Origin: Chloroflexota bacterium
GTDB lineage: Bacteria > Chloroflexota > Anaerolineae > UBA2200 > JACIWT01
Reading direction: 5' to 3'
Assembly: GCA_014360825.1 (NCBI GenBank)
Contig: JACIWT010000020.1
Span: forward strand, 1 to 37,644
DNA: 37,644 nucleotides
Part shown: positions 1-37,644 of the stretch, in pieces
How positions within the stretch are numbered: the first letter of the stretch is position 1
Layout: each line of letters starts with the position of its first letter
Notes under the pieces: generated by a model
Told to the model about the DNA's origin: nothing
Seen by the model: only the letters and a program-made list of their open reading frames with translations
Databases searched by the model: none
Translations under genes and position numbers: made by a program

Positions 1-395
1 GCGGTATTCCGGTCAGTGCCATTATATTTGGAGGCATCACAAATCCCCGGCACCACGTGGCCATTAGCCGCATACCCTGTATTCCCTCCACCCGTCGCCC
101 CCTCACACCGATCCGAAGCATCACATTCATGATATCGGTAAACATATTGATAATAATATGAGGTTGCCTGGTAGCATAGTTCGCAGTCATAAGCATACTT
201 AAACGTCCAAACAGAACAAGGGTCACCAGGTTGGCAACATTTGTTTTCTAAAGGCACACCGTTAGCCGCGCAATCTGACATTTCCACCCCATTGGATGTG
301 CAAGTGGCTTGGGCTAAGACCCTTTTGGGCAAGAAGAGGAAGCCCGTTATCAACAGAAGGAAAAAGAAAATCTGACAGGCTCGTTTAGTCATCAT
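1..395 (-). CDS. Cysteine-rich secreted protein, gene A of left cassette (partial, runs off the window)
   Basis: Start codon at 395 with the C-terminus cut by the window edge; about 131 residues are visible. It begins with a basic, hydrophobic signal peptide ending in a VLAQA-type cleavage site, followed by a Cys-rich region with about ten Cys visible. A segment reading YQYVYRYHECDASDRC matches YQYRYDYRSCGAYDSC in the protein at 35702-36409, so the two are homologous. Its ATG overlaps the stop of the upstream gene B as ATGA (392-395), and no Shine-Dalgarno sequence is visible, so translation is probably coupled to B. Function unknown. The Cys pattern suggests a disulfide-stabilised extracellular protein; that is inference. 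Confidence 0.7.
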   Translation of the reverse strand, partial: MMTKRACQIFFFLLLITGFLFLPKRVLAQATCTSNGVEMSDCAANGVPLENKCCQPGDPCSVWTFKYAYDCELCYQATSYYYQYVYRYHECDASDRCEGATGGGNTGYAANGHVVPGICDASKYNGTDRNT

Positions 396-946
396 TGAAA
401 ACTATTACTAGTAATTGGTAAGGATTCTCCATTCTTTTCTACGCTAAAATAAAAATTTACTTCTCTGGTAGAAGAAATCGACTCGCCGCTTACCCGAGTA
501 AGAACTTCACCCTTCCTTACCGCAAACGGCAGGGTTTCTGTTTCTCCTTGGAAAAAATAAACGGCTTTGTACCCCTCCCGACTGGTCAAAGAAATTGCTT
601 CGAAAGGCGTTCCGTCTTCGCTTTTCCCTGCTCCTCGGTTTGGCTCACCGGTGAATGCTGCCAGCAAGGGTGTTCCTTCGGGCAAGATAAATTCTAATCC
701 TACCAATTTACCTTCCCAATAAACTTCTTTTCCAGACTGACAGTAATCTTGAGGCACTGGACAACCGATAATGAAATCTTCTTTGGAAAGTTCTGGGGGA
801 GATGGAGAAATCTTTGGCTGGGGTTTCTGCCAAAAGGCTCCGTAGCGAGAGAGGGCAAAATTGAACCCGATGAGAACAATTATCGAAGAAATCAGAACGA
901 GAAGAGCAATTTTGGGGAGTTTAGAATCCTGGGCAGTTTCCATCAT
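392..946 (-). CDS. Membrane-anchored protein with degenerate M23/LytM-like domain (gene B, left cassette)
   Basis: 184 aa. One N-terminal membrane segment (about residues 12-32) is followed by the motif LSRYGAFWQKP, shared with the protein at 36406-36951, then a Pro-rich linker and a beta-rich domain. The end of that domain (RKGEVLTRVSG, then VNFYFSVEKNGESLPI) resembles the last strands of M23 peptidases, where the family has a GPHLHFEV-type motif. The metal-binding His pair is replaced here by N and Y, so peptidase activity is unlikely. It starts with ATG-ATG and no ribosome binding site; a promoter lies immediately upstream. The fold assignment is by eye. It could instead be a generic lipoyl-like barrel sandwich. 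Confidence 0.65.
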   Translation of the reverse strand: MMETAQDSKLPKIALLVLISSIIVLIGFNFALSRYGAFWQKPQPKISPSPPELSKEDFIIGCPVPQDYCQSGKEVYWEGKLVGLEFILPEGTPLLAAFTGEPNRGAGKSEDGTPFEAISLTSREGYKAVYFFQGETETLPFAVRKGEVLTRVSGESISSTREVNFYFSVEKNGESLPITSNSFQ

Positions 947-952
947 AAATTA

Positions 953-981
953 AGAATAGAAGATTAGGGAATTATTGTCAA
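953..981 (-). promoter_or_regulatory. Promoter of left gene B, apparently leaderless
   Basis: On the minus strand TTGACA (976-981) is separated by 17 nt from TATTCT (953-958). Only 6 nt separate the -10 from the ATG at 946, so transcription would start at or next to the start codon. The -35 overlaps the stop codon of gene C (978-980). The homologous gene B' has the same arrangement at 36961-36988. Confidence 0.6.
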
Positions 982-2537
982 GGGAGAGTGAAAACAAGAT
1001 CCCCCCGCTGATTCAAGATATCATCCGCATTAAAATCTAGGATGTTCTTTCCGTCTTCGCTAGGTATTGCTACCTGAATTTCCCCAGGAAACCAATTAGT
1101 AATTATTTTCTCGTTTTTTAACTTAAAAATGGCCTCTCCAATAAAAACTCCCTTTTTTTCTCCATATGTCAGGTCGGGAATTAAAACCTCCATGTTGTTC
1201 GGTAAAAAGAAACAATAGAGTATTTCTCCAGTACTATCAGCAACTACAGCCATATTGAATTTCGTCTTGTCAGGTACAAAGGCCTCGCGGATAAAAAAGA
1301 CAGTTCCCACTACTGGAGATCTAAAAACAGTTCCGGAATTTAAGCCTTTTAACCCAATAAATTTTAGCGTAGGATCACCATAAGGACTCTGTTCTTCCTC
1401 AATCTGCACTACCATTCCTCTCGGGTCAAACATTAGGGGAATCTTAAATTCTCCCCTCTGTCTCGCGTCTTCTTGGAGCTTTGCGATTACCTTTGGCTTA
1501 AGTCCAATCCACCCCCATCGTTCCTCGCCATTGACAAAGTATTTTTCTTTGGCATAAATCCCGGCCTCGCTGCCGGCGGGCAGGCCGTAGCGGTTGTCCA
1601 GGGTGACATAGGCTTTTCGGCCAGCATCCCATTTCAATCCCCACTCGGAAAGTTCCGGCGCTTCCGCGGTTGGCCGTTCGGGGGTGGGAAGGTGGATGAC
1701 CGTCCCCACAATCCTCGAATCCGTCTTTGCTCCCTCCAAGCACCGGTCCAGCCAGTATCGGAAAGCATGAGGGTGGTCCTCCTGAATCCTCCCCAGCCAC
1801 TCCACCACAATCTGCCGCCAAAGGCCCTGGTCCGGAAGCGTTTCATTTCTAAACCCCGGCATCCTCTCCGCCAGGGCGGGGTTCATCGCCGCCACTCTGA
1901 GCACCTCCAGCCGTCGCTGGTTAGCGTCGGTGATAGAAGCCAAAGTCGGATCATTCCGAACCAGGATTCGCCAAATACTCTCCTGGAAAACGTACTCATC
2001 GGTTACCCTTTGTCTTTGCCGCTCCGTCTGATAGAAGGGCCGCGTCCAATAGACGGAGTTGATTTTCTCGGCGTAGTAGGGGCTGGCGAGGATTTCGCTT
2101 TGGGAGACGATGTCTTCGAGGCGGATGGTGTAAGAGATGTATCCGGTCGGGGCAATCTGGGTGGGCGGGAACGCTTGCAAACTGGTTTGGCGGCCTATCG
2201 CGGCCCAGTCCCAGCGGGACTGGACAAGACCAGCCGGTGGATTCATCCACTGGCGACCGGCGTGGGCCGGGATTTCACTACCCACCGCGCCTGGAAATGC
2301 GATCTCCAGTAGGGGCAGCCGGCCGGTCGCCCCTACATCCCGGGCGTAACCGTCGAATTCCATTCGGTGGCGGGTATTCACAAGTGGGAGCCGTCTCCAG
2401 ACGGCGATACTCTGGTCGCAATCTGGAGATTGCTCCCCCGACTGGCCAGCCAGGGTGGGCAGAGTGCCCGAGGCGGCCGTCGCTACGAGAGTTAGGATGA
2501 GGGCCACCAGAATCTTCACCCTCGGTTCGCAGTTCAT
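978..2537 (-). CDS. Secreted protein of mosaic composition (gene C, left cassette)
   Basis: 519 aa from the ATG at 2537, chosen because a GGAGG sits 5 nt upstream and a clear signal peptide follows (MNCEPRVKILVALILTLVA, ending near TLAG). The open frame extends to a GTG at 2642, but that extension only translates hairpin repeats. Residues about 28-85 are encoded by palindromic elements; the middle (about 90-290) is unrecognised; the last ~200 residues resemble the protein at 37002-37644 (for example GEFKIPLMFDP against GILSFPLPFDP) and end in strands like a lipoyl/M23 barrel sandwich. Base composition changes at about 1560: AT-rich at the 3' end, GC-rich upstream. This may be a natural fusion or an assembly join. 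Function unknown. Confidence 0.6.
   Translation of the reverse strand: MNCEPRVKILVALILTLVATAASGTLPTLAGQSGEQSPDCDQSIAVWRRLPLVNTRHRMEFDGYARDVGATGRLPLLEIAFPGAVGSEIPAHAGRQWMNPPAGLVQSRWDWAAIGRQTSLQAFPPTQIAPTGYISYTIRLEDIVSQSEILASPYYAEKINSVYWTRPFYQTERQRQRVTDEYVFQESIWRILVRNDPTLASITDANQRRLEVLRVAAMNPALAERMPGFRNETLPDQGLWRQIVVEWLGRIQEDHPHAFRYWLDRCLEGAKTDSRIVGTVIHLPTPERPTAEAPELSEWGLKWDAGRKAYVTLDNRYGLPAGSEAGIYAKEKYFVNGEERWGWIGLKPKVIAKLQEDARQRGEFKIPLMFDPRGMVVQIEEEQSPYGDPTLKFIGLKGLNSGTVFRSPVVGTVFFIREAFVPDKTKFNMAVVADSTGEILYCFFLPNNMEVLIPDLTYGEKKGVFIGEAIFKLKNEKIITNWFPGEIQVAIPSEDGKNILDFNADDILNQRGDLVFTLP
1562..1587. repeat. Inverted repeat at the composition boundary inside gene C
   Basis: CGGCCT (1562-1567) and AGGCCG (1582-1587) flank a GCCGGC palindrome (1572-1577). 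The element sits where the AT-rich 3' part of gene C gives way to GC-rich sequence. Confidence 0.5.
2205..2223. repeat. Perfect 8-bp hairpin with 3-nt loop inside gene C
   Basis: CCAGTCCC, loop AGC, GGGACTGG. It has the same design (short perfect stem, 3-nt loop) as the array at 2578-2660 and is translated in frame. Confidence 0.55.
2309..2336. repeat. 28-bp near-perfect palindrome inside gene C
   Basis: Two 14-nt arms beginning GTAGGGGC and ending GCCCCTAC meet at a CCGGCCGG centre, with two mismatched positions. It lies within the palindrome-rich segment following the gene C signal peptide. Confidence 0.65.
2386..2437. repeat. 52-bp three-stem palindromic element, copy 1
   Basis: Outer stem GGGAGC/GCTCCC encloses two hairpins: GCCGTCT-CC-AGACGGC (2390-2405) and GCAATCT-GG-AGATTGC (2418-2433). 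Copy 2 at 2808-2859 has the same length and differs mainly in the linker between the hairpins. It is read in frame in gene C directly after the signal peptide. Confidence 0.75.
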
Positions 2538-2559: not shown

Positions 2560-2781
2560 CTACGATTTCGCAGCCCCGCCCGGAAATGAAATTTCCGGGC
2601 TACGGTCACGAAGTCCCGCAGGGACTTCGCAGGCGTAGCCACCGAATTCTATTCGGTGGCGGGTATTGGCGCAGACAGGGTTCGTCCCAGCAGAAGCGGG
2701 CGCAGCGCTCAGGGTAGCGATTGCTGCCAGTACTACGATGAGTGCAACCAGAGCCATTTTCGCTCGTGCTTCAGGGTTCAT
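2560..2781 (-). CDS. Signal-peptide mini-ORF, copy 2 (probably a remnant)
   Basis: 73 aa. The ATG at 2781 is preceded by a GGAGGGAG ribosome site similar to that of gene C. The first 32 residues are a signal peptide (MNPEARAKMALVALIVVLAA, ending ASAG) related to those of gene C and the ORF at 2771-2962. The remainder translates the three-hairpin array and stops. It looks like a duplicated 5' gene end whose body was replaced by repeats, but a functional short secreted peptide cannot be excluded. Confidence 0.35.
   Translation of the reverse strand: MNPEARAKMALVALIVVLAAIATLSAAPASAGTNPVCANTRHRIEFGGYACEVPAGLRDRSPEISFPGGAAKS
2578..2660. repeat. Array of three perfect hairpins with 3-nt loops
   Basis: Three successive perfect stems: 10 bp (2578-2600, loop GAA), 9 bp (2609-2629, loop GCA) and 10 bp (2638-2660, loop TCT). 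Degenerate relatives of the first and third occur in gene C near 2290-2308 and 2350-2372, so these behave as modular repeat units. Confidence 0.8.
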
Positions 2782-2962
2782 GTTCTCCCTCCGTCCCTAC
2801 TCCCAGTGGGAGCCGTCTCCAGACGGCGATGCGCCGATCGCAATCTGGAGATTGCTCCCCCGACTGGCCAGCCAAGGCGGGCGCAGCGCTCAGGGCTACT
2901 ATCACTGCCAGGGCCAGGACGAGGGCAACTAAGATTATTTTCACCCTTGCTTCGGAACTCAC
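2771..2962 (-). CDS. Signal-peptide mini-ORF, copy 3 (probably a remnant)
   Basis: 63 aa from a GTG at 2962. A signal peptide (MSSEARVKIILVALVLALAV, ending PALAG) is followed by residues encoded by the 52-bp palindromic element (2808-2859), then a stop. SGEQSPDCD after the cleavage site also occurs in gene C. No ribosome site is evident. The GTG overlaps the stop of an upstream minus-strand open frame as GTGA, but that frame is not recognisable as a gene. Confidence 0.3.
   Translation of the reverse strand: MSSEARVKIILVALVLALAVIVALSAAPALAGQSGEQSPDCDRRIAVWRRLPLGVGTEGEHEP
2808..2859. repeat. 52-bp three-stem palindromic element, copy 2
   Basis: Same outer stem and two inner hairpins as the element at 2386-2437. 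Only the short linker between the inner hairpins differs noticeably. A right-half remnant (AGATTGCTCCCCTGAC) is present at 28022-28037. Confidence 0.75.
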
Positions 2963-35701: not shown

Positions 35702-36409
35702 TCATCCAAACTCACCTAACCTGGAAATTGGCGTCGGCGTCGCGGCCGGAGGCGGCGTCGGGGTCGGAGCGCCTACACGACAAACCGCTGCTGGATCATC
35801 GCAAGAGGGATACGTACCAAATCCGCAAAATTTTGCTGTTGAGCCCGCCGGACAAGTGCCGGAAAACTGTCCGCCCTGACAATTCCCATTCACTGTTCCG
35901 TCGGCATTACAACAAATTTTATATATTCCCCCAACTGTACACCCGCTCGAATCACACCTTCCGGCGTTAAGCTTTGGATGGGCGGCAGTACAACTATCAT
36001 ATGCGCCGCAAGATCTATAATCGTAGCGGTATTGGTATAAGCATCTTCCCTCGAAGTCCGGGTTCGCCTTTTCCTGACATACCCCATAGCACCAGGTCCA
36101 TTGGGAAATAGTGCCGCAGTTGCTGGAACAACCACCTGAACTGGTACAACAGGTATTATCTGGAAAGCCGATAGCGGCTTGACATTCACTCAAAGAGGTA
36201 TCTGTCCAATTTTCGTATGGGCAGGGGGAATAGCAACAGGTCAACAATCTGCTCACATCATAGGCACAAATGGCAGAAGACCTACAACCTGCATCGGGAT
36301 GAGTCGGTCCGCAGCAATTGACCAATCCTAAAACAGGTCTTGGCCGGAAAAATAAGAAAACCCCGACCAAAACAACCAAGAATATTAACCTTATTAAAAT
36401 TTGTTTCAT
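35702..36409 (-). CDS. Cysteine-rich secreted protein, gene A' of right cassette
   Basis: 235 aa. Hydrophobic signal peptide (IRLIFLVVLVGVFLFF), then a mature region with 26 Cys including several CC pairs, and a Pro/Thr tail (PTPTPPPAATPTP). It shares the YQYxY...C...C segment and its cassette position with the partial protein at 1-395. The start overlaps the stop of B' as ATGA (36406-36409). Likely an extracellular disulfide-rich protein; no known family recognised. AT-richer than the core genes. Confidence 0.75.
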   Translation of the reverse strand: MKQILIRLIFLVVLVGVFLFFRPRPVLGLVNCCGPTHPDAGCRSSAICAYDVSRLLTCCYSPCPYENWTDTSLSECQAAIGFPDNTCCTSSGGCSSNCGTISQWTWCYGVCQEKANPDFEGRCLYQYRYDYRSCGAYDSCTAAHPKLNAGRCDSSGCTVGGIYKICCNADGTVNGNCQGGQFSGTCPAGSTAKFCGFGTYPSCDDPAAVCRVGAPTPTPPPAATPTPISRLGEFG

Positions 36410-36951
36410 TTTTTCTCTAAGCCGGCAGTCTTCAACATTTCTCGTGTTAGCCTCAACGGCTCACCATTTTTGAAAAGATAAAGGCCTAAGTTGCCACCAG
36501 AAAGACACCCAGGGCCTTCTCCCTTTTTGGTTGTAGCAATAACCTCTCCTTCGGCAACTTTCTTTCCCTCTCCTACTAAAACTCTGCCAAAAATAAGATA
36601 ACTGGCTGTTAGACCGTCACTTCTGGTCAGTTGGACATTGTCAAATTCAGTCCCTGGCACAACTTTGGAAACCTCTCCTTCAAAAACAGCATAAATCGGC
36701 GTTTCCGGAGGAAGGAAAAAAACTAAATGGTCAGAATCGGCAGCAGAGGTGGGAATAGTCTGCAGAAGCCCATCTTCTACTGGCGACGCCAAAAGAAATG
36801 GCGTGGGAGTAGGAAGAACGATTACAGAAGATGGTTTGGGCTTTTGCCAAAAAGCGCCATAACGAGAAAGAGCAAGATTAAAACCCAAAAGAAGGACAAT
36901 TAAGAAGCAAAGACTAGTAAGCAGGAATAATTTCTTTGAATCGGGCAGCAT
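36406..36951 (-). CDS. Membrane-anchored degenerate M23-like protein, gene B' of right cassette
   Basis: 181 aa. N-terminal membrane helix (about 9-27) followed by LSRYGAFWQKP, identical to gene B. The C-terminal domain follows the LytM pattern GRVLVGEGKKVAEGEVIATT, then GNLGLYLFKNGEPLRLT, but with Asn and Gly replacing the zinc-binding His pair. No ribosome site; a promoter sits 9 nt upstream. Together with B it forms a conserved family of probably non-enzymatic cell-wall or surface proteins (inference). Confidence 0.72.
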   Translation of the reverse strand: MLPDSKKLFLLTSLCFLIVLLLGFNLALSRYGAFWQKPKPSSVIVLPTPTPFLLASPVEDGLLQTIPTSAADSDHLVFFLPPETPIYAVFEGEVSKVVPGTEFDNVQLTRSDGLTASYLIFGRVLVGEGKKVAEGEVIATTKKGEGPGCLSGGNLGLYLFKNGEPLRLTREMLKTAGLEKK

Positions 36952-37001: not shown

Positions 37002-37644
37002 TTATCTAATATATACTAACCTACCTGCTTTGTCCCTCAAGAGATTAATAAAAGTAGTATCGTAACCTTCGGAGAAGTCTGGTTTAACAGTACATATTAC
37101 GAATTGGTAGCTTTCTCCAAACCCCGCGAAGTACGGAGGTAGGGTTTCCTTGGTCAATCTTAAAACTGGCTGTCCCGCGTTAACATAATTTCCTAGACTA
37201 TCCCAGTTAAAGCTCCTGGGTAAACCAAAGTCAAGTGCGACATTATTGAGAACAATCAAAAACCCTTTTGAGTTAGTCGTCCCGAATTTTTCCACCTTCC
37301 CGCTAAATGGGGCTTTGATAATTATACCCTCTTCTATGTTGCGAAAACATAGATGGATTTTAAGACTAGTATTTATCTCAACCAATCCGGATGATGAATT
37401 CGGATCAAAAGGCAGGGGAAAAGATAGGATTCCCTTCTTTTCCCATTGCTCTTTAACTGCCACTTCTGCTTGCTCGGCTGGCCAGCCGACAAATAACCCT
37501 TTGTGTTTTTCAAAATCAATCGCTGTAATCTCTGGATTCAGAACAATTTTATTTTCTGTGGCACTCCAATAAGCCATTATTTGATTATCTTGGTCTCTGT
37601 ATTCCCATCTTTTAGTGCGCTCGTTCCAAACTTCATCAAATCCA
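37002..37644 (-). CDS. Gene C' of right cassette (partial, 5' end outside the window)
   Basis: The frame is open to the window edge (GFDEVWNERTKRWEYR upstream of the first visible Met at 37577); about 213 residues are visible. It aligns loosely with the C-terminal part of gene C: GILSFPLPFDP, then IIIKAPFSGKVEKFG and NAGQPVLRLTKE. The last two read like the strands of a lipoyl/M23-type barrel sandwich. No catalytic residues recognised. Followed by B' and A' in the same order as the left cassette. Confidence 0.6.
   Translation of the reverse strand, partial: GFDEVWNERTKRWEYRDQDNQIMAYWSATENKIVLNPEITAIDFEKHKGLFVGWPAEQAEVAVKEQWEKKGILSFPLPFDPNSSSGLVEINTSLKIHLCFRNIEEGIIIKAPFSGKVEKFGTTNSKGFLIVLNNVALDFGLPRSFNWDSLGNYVNAGQPVLRLTKETLPPYFAGFGESYQFVICTVKPDFSEGYDTTFINLLRDKAGRLVYIR

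Follow-up and report, generated by a model that had tools for sequence, protein, structure and literature searches.

The window analyzed here is one whole contig (C20, 37,644 bp) of an Anaerolineae (Chloroflexota) MAG, labelled G000, which comprises 2.89 Mb on 64 contigs and is 98% complete. Each end of the window carries a cassette of three genes, C, B, and A, arranged in identical order on the minus strand with an ATGA overlap between B and A (Table 1), as a first, sequence-only reading had noted. The B and B' proteins have the LSRYGAFWQKP motif in common and are 33–35% identical overall (tblastn E 1e-17), and their resemblance is therefore not due to chance. A and A' also form one family, their heads aligning with invariant cysteines across copies. 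The cassette copies are homologous and diverged, which bears out the proposal of a gene family; an assembly echo was set aside, the copies being too diverged for it.

Table 1. Cassette features at the two ends of the window (positions in the window; -, minus strand)
Feature	Position	Strand	Description
Gene A, left	3..395	-	5' part only (131 aa), cut by the contig edge; signal peptide and cysteine-rich head
Gene B	392..946	-	N-terminal TM helix and inactive M23/LytM domain; LSRYGAFWQKP; in variable block
Gene C	978..2537	-	519 aa, ATG at 2537; N-terminal Sec signal peptide
Gene C domains			AlphaFold model: low-confidence region; helical ~171–266; P/T linker ~270–291; C-terminal inactive LytM fold
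C C-terminal domain	978..1610	-	~43% GC; diverged between loci; first piece of variable block
C 5' half, constant, host-like	1650..2537	-	57–62% GC; 83–92% nt identity to the C19 locus
54-bp dispersed repeat	2384..2437	.	In frame within C, directly after the signal peptide
Two degenerate tandem copies of C 5' end	2560..2960	-	Start codon and signal peptide; upstream of gene C
Gene A'	35702..36409	-	235 aa; signal peptide, cysteine-rich head, P/T linker
Gene B'	36406..36951	-	TM helix and inactive M23/LytM domain; Pfam PF01551 E 6e-8
Gene C'	37002..37643	-	Cut by the contig end, which removes the 5' half; C-terminal domain remains

In the AlphaFold model of C, the C-terminal domain is a beta domain predicted with confidence, and the N-terminal parts are low-confidence and helical only. 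The C-terminal domain aligns to M23/LytM structures with Z values of 8–8.9 after VIA re-alignment; Foldseek alone, run with full-length C, gave no match. The profiles of C and B match each other (hhalign E 9e-7), and the B profile matches M23, LytU, DipM, and LytM structures in the PDB, the Pfam Peptidase_M23 threshold being passed by B' only, with the left-copy B at 0.17. No Pfam LysM match was present in the B and C proteins scanned. When aligned to LytU, all 27 B and all 19 C proteins have lost the metal-binding and catalytic set (HxxxD, HxH), and a single stray His is the sole remnant at any catalytic position. Because of this loss, an active M23 peptidase was set aside; that both B and C are catalytically dead M23/LytM domains adds to the earlier description of a membrane-anchored M23-like protein. 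In G003, G022, and most Patescibacteria, a lipobox can be read by eye behind the C signal peptide, and C is probably a lipoprotein there; the C 5' half in G000 is without a lipobox. The C-terminal domain encoded by C' has its nearest relative in a Microgenomates C (locus L111). Further copies of the 54-bp repeat were observed on about ten other contigs, and one of the degenerate copies of the C start has an SD-like site.

The head of A is a cysteine-rich domain of ~180 aa in which certain C, W, D, and G positions hardly vary in an alignment across copies; its model has a mean pLDDT of 86. It had no Pfam or PDB match in profile searches, Foldseek, or VIA-align, and its best structural match, the lysenin pore (Z 3.4 over 57 residues), is unconvincing, which is no proof of a new fold. 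Because there is no structural match, any role given to the head is a guess. In Patescibacteria, A is usually long (731–1,885 aa where apparently complete), with a stalk of SdrD_B, Fn3, or PA14 domains according to Pfam, and also Ig-like ones. Using a search with a positive control, a DUF7305-like tail, which often ends in QEVAP, was found in 8 of 9 Patescibacteria genomes versus 0 of 7 Chloroflexota genomes; the Pfam matches to DUF7305 are weak and occur in A of loci L107 and L114. In Chloroflexota, A is short or truncated at differing points and joined to unrelated genes, and its function there may for this reason differ from that in Patescibacteria. A' itself is without stalk or tail domain, and the next gene is 6-phosphofructokinase-like. 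Among other A loci, the A of contig C32 has an internal deletion, and two loci (L021:11772-12272 and L028:2057-2557) share a 97% identical 3' end that includes an M28-like aminopeptidase gene. The gene directly 3' of A at L110:14259-15059, in one Microgenomates genome only, has a weak PilX_N match, hinting at a possible type IV pilus link.

A search of the whole genome located nine or ten C-B-A loci. The cassette reported earlier at the two window ends is thus real at both of them but is not merely a pair. Complete or nearly complete cassettes are C20-left, C19, C23-right, and C51; 3' parts were found at C20-right, C23-left, C26, C32, and C8, and also where C10 begins and where C2 ends. C 5' ends lie at the ends of C10, C21, C24, C41, and C16. 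If C51 and the C10 start are one locus, the 5 orphan 5' ends are opposed by 5 orphan 3' ends, and with the extra A at the C2 end the count comes to nine or ten. The C 5' half recurs at many contig ends of G000, and the contig ends fall within or beside this repeated half, or inside A. Contigs mostly break at cassettes because the C 5' half is a long, closely similar repeat, and C-B-A stands at both window ends because the cassette is repetitive in the genome.

Scanning 85,000 named genomes with the A alignment returned one Anaerolineae locus and three Microgenomates loci (Daviesbacteria, Levybacteria); at all 3 Microgenomates loci, A immediately follows B/C-like genes. Among sampled genomes, A was found in 17 of 374 of the Microgenomates class (2 of them weak matches), in 7 of 396 of the window's class, and in 5 of 380 across all Patescibacteria, numbers that are lower bounds since many matches lie at contig ends. 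Of the 18 Patescibacteria (Microgenomates) loci with an unambiguous A head and upstream sequence of 1 kb or more, 17 have an inactive-LytM gene directly upstream of A, and such genes directly precede A at every Chloroflexota locus with upstream sequence, B or C homologues being recognized at the Anaerolineae loci L066, L069, and L080. Gene order among the Patescibacteria loci is C-B-A in 5, B-C-A in 4, and other combinations elsewhere. The search of Chloroflexota and Patescibacteria that the sequence-only reading had proposed thus found B or C homologues directly upstream of A in other genomes, and the conservation of the operon across phyla supports its suggestion of an uncharacterized surface system, the surface location being predicted from signal peptides, TM helices, and lipoboxes. 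One Microgenomates cassette (L112:3392-6965) adjoins an integrase-like gene, IS481-like when read by eye, as well as another cysteine-rich secreted protein.

Comparison of loci within one genome shows that the cassette unit is constant-variable-constant. Two loci may be almost identical in the first ~290 residues of C or in the A stalk and tail; the variable block consists of the C-terminal domain of C, B, and the head of A, with 17–32% identity in C and A. The Microgenomates genome G474 has two C genes that match at 99.7% across an 888-bp stretch beginning 50 bp ahead of the ATG; residues 1–240 are 100% identical, identity is lost near residue 290 and is 17–28% (aa) from there on, and B and the A head differ likewise. 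The opposite flank is conserved in G524, where two loci, both far from the ends of long contigs, are 98.75% identical along 2,720 bp of A stalk and tail: residues 211–1070 of A are 93–100% identical, the heads 28–32%, and the upstream genes differ. A similar step occurs in G728 (96.9% over 325 bp up to the contig end). Each of these Patescibacteria genomes shows near-identity in one of the two flanks only. In G000, the C 5' half is ~88% identical (nt) between loci and the C-terminal domain 38–59% (contig C19 versus the left copy); for the C19/C51 pair, dS within the same gene C is 0.22 in the 5' half versus 1.19 in the C-terminal domain, and the A proteins of C23-right and C26 have heads with ~32% and distal parts with 70–82% aa identity. 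The three trees, built from the C-terminal domain of C, from B, and from the A head, are correlated (Mantel p 5e-5 to 0.007). The correlation is strong among the Chloroflexota cassettes (C-B r 0.87) and weaker among those of Patescibacteria, where C-B and C-A each give p about 0.04; the two G474 loci, L111 and L112, are grouped in the B and A trees but not in the C tree. This co-variation could come partly from simple linkage.

A variable block between constant flanks suggests that the flanks undergo recombination or gene conversion. A rival explanation is active antigenic or receptor variation, in which the extra loci would be a store of heads recombined into expressed sites, so that cells would switch the displayed C-B-A head and thereby change host or escape phages or competitors. 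A near-identical flank next to a diverged block within one genome (Patescibacteria G474, G524, and G728, and the window's G000), block boundaries that in some cases lie in or near P/T linkers, and multicopy cassettes at contig ends in several genomes are all compatible with such switching. However, most copies keep their signal peptide and an intact frame and look expressed rather than silent, and no recombinase was seen adjoining the Chloroflexota copies; we therefore regard switching as possible but unlikely.

The Chloroflexota cassettes show a jump in GC content inside gene C. Near codon 345, GC drops from a host-like 57–62% to 40–47% (from ~60% to ~42%), a low level that continues across B and most of A; the cassette loci of Patescibacteria have 32–49%, mostly 39–44%. 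The same contrast was observed in G003 and G076, G003 having a different N-terminal half of C. The phylogeny is also mixed: in an unrooted concatenated tree, the Chloroflexota cassettes scatter among those of Patescibacteria, with the window's right-hand cassette nearest G474 and G022 grouping with L084/L110. A single Chloroflexota clade is rejected (AU p 2e-8), as is a tree holding G000 and G003 together (AU p 0.003, or 0.0002 without long branches). The tree being unrooted, it is from GC, completeness, and prevalence that Microgenomates to Anaerolineae appears to be the simplest direction of transfer. Between an Anaerolineae MAG and a Microgenomates genome, a part of C with lipobox and P/T linker (L067:7488-7822 and L110:6824-7188) is 79% identical in DNA, suggesting recent transfer or contamination.

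Two further junctions were noted in these genomes. L148 (G076, contig C94) and L070 (the C10 start of G000) are 85.5% identical over 3.3 kb across an A-mutS2 junction; the 2 MAGs are placed in different families, and the identity may reflect a shared insertion, recent transfer, or a binning error. At L150:4344-5582 (G1234), an A fragment at the contig end is in frame with the C-terminal part of a yvcK-like gene, which is a chimera or a real insertion. Assembly or binning chimeras of Patescibacteria and Chloroflexota DNA would create fusions such as that of G1234, together with a GC change and many matches at contig ends. Yet foreign-like and host-like sequence share one open frame at several loci, the G003 cassette lies inside a 415-kb contig, and the A-mutS2 junction is present in two MAGs, which makes this explanation of the Chloroflexota cassettes barely credible. 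It is also quite improbable that an unrecognized mobile element carries the cassette and inserts it beside unrelated genes. The many dispersed loci with unrelated 3' neighbors, and the constant 5' end with stacked repeats opposite a variable 3' end, resemble one-ended transposition, but transposases, integrases, or common terminal repeats were not noticed in the Chloroflexota cassettes (no systematic search), two pattern-based queries of IMG/VR found no relative in viral contigs, and PLSDB plasmids contained no relative of A'.

The Chloroflexota cassettes might instead be decaying, non-functional leftovers of DNA transferred from Patescibacteria. This would fit the truncation of A at varied points and its fusion to unrelated genes, a frameshift in the B of C23-left, and stop codons in the cassette fragments of G1234 and G076. 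In all Chloroflexota pairs tested, however, dN/dS is 0.18–0.34 (about 0.2–0.3) for A, B, and both halves of C, and most loci have full reading frames. The Chloroflexota cassettes are therefore not simply relics, and decay is an improbable account of them.

We consider it somewhat probable that C-B-A serves the ultra-small Patescibacteria as an adhesin-display module, and that its co-evolving head block has been repeatedly transferred into Anaerolineae and kept there by purifying selection, its function being predicted from sequence. Since the LytM pair nearly always precedes A and co-diversifies with its head, it is best read as a docking platform. C, as a lipoprotein in most relatives, and B, through its one TM helix, would each hold an inactive LytM domain on the outer side of the membrane, and secreted A would dock on both domains by its cysteine-rich head. 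In Patescibacteria, the A stalk (SdrD_B, Fn3, PA14, Ig-like) and the DUF7305-like tail would then reach outward as an adhesin. The C C-terminal domain, B, and the A head would be cognate partners, inherited and exchanged as a single block between a constant 5' side, the N-terminal half of C, and a constant 3' side, the A stalk and tail. These flanks may be kept alike, and blocks moved between loci, by homologous recombination or gene conversion within the flanks, and blocks probably moved several times from Microgenomates-type Patescibacteria into Anaerolineae. G000 would accordingly represent a recipient in which foreign blocks came to lie behind a host-like C 5' half, giving nine or ten loci without an A tail and under purifying selection.

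An adhesin-display module of this kind would make the C-B-A operon a defined, clonable candidate for how Patescibacteria recognize or hold their hosts, with natural specificity types, and the repeated presence of the cassette in Chloroflexota would name a possible ecological partner. It would also be a surface system of bacteria in which the unit of exchange takes in parts of 3 genes. In both phyla, the cassette accounts for one class of breaks between MAG contigs. A far-fetched extension is that Anaerolineae domesticated adhesin heads of their own epibiotic Patescibacteria. Many different tail-less C-B-A blocks would then serve as decoys or self-markers: by occupying the contact partner, they would prevent matching epibionts from attaching, which, if true, would be a bacterial counterpart of envelope-derived immunity in animals.

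Literature searches covering Patescibacteria surface proteins, LytM pseudo-enzymes, pilus adhesins, and transfer to Chloroflexota returned no account of C-B-A, the nearest report being the suggested domain reshuffling in FhaB-like giants of a Patescibacterium (PMC11809585). We place the cassette among the variable modular surface adhesins, a kind already known, although its composition and its unit of exchange are undescribed. Known inactive LytM regulators act by binding partner proteins (PMC10336132). Like DipM, EnvC, and NlpD, and the related case of SpoIIQ, C and B have a LytM/M23 fold, a predicted envelope location, and lost metal ligands. What sets the cassette apart from these regulators is that at least 2 LytM genes immediately precede the gene for a large, cysteine-rich secreted protein, with whose head they co-diversify, and no amidase or divisome partner was noticed near the cassette. 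The A protein of Patescibacteria shares with modular adhesins a signal peptide and a long SdrD_B/Fn3/PA14 stalk; it differs from them in its new cysteine-rich head, its DUF7305-like tail, and its LytM partners nearly always upstream, and no LPxTG-type sorting signal was noticed in it. As a candidate host-binding protein of epibionts with a DUF7305-like tail, A also resembles PilY1/PilX pilus-tip adhesins such as PilX2 of Saccharibacteria (PMC12206443), from which it is set apart by the missing pilin N-terminus, the LytM partners, and a pilus link at one locus only (L110). A CDI/Rhs polymorphic toxin was set aside, as what varies in C is a LytM domain without activity, the scanned C, B, and A proteins have no toxin domain in Pfam, and no immunity gene was recognized. 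As in pilE/pilS and CDI/Rhs, a constant flank, homologous between copies, lies beside a variable segment in several to many copies per genome; in contrast to both, the variable segment of C-B-A is made up of the end of C, the whole of B, and the start of A.
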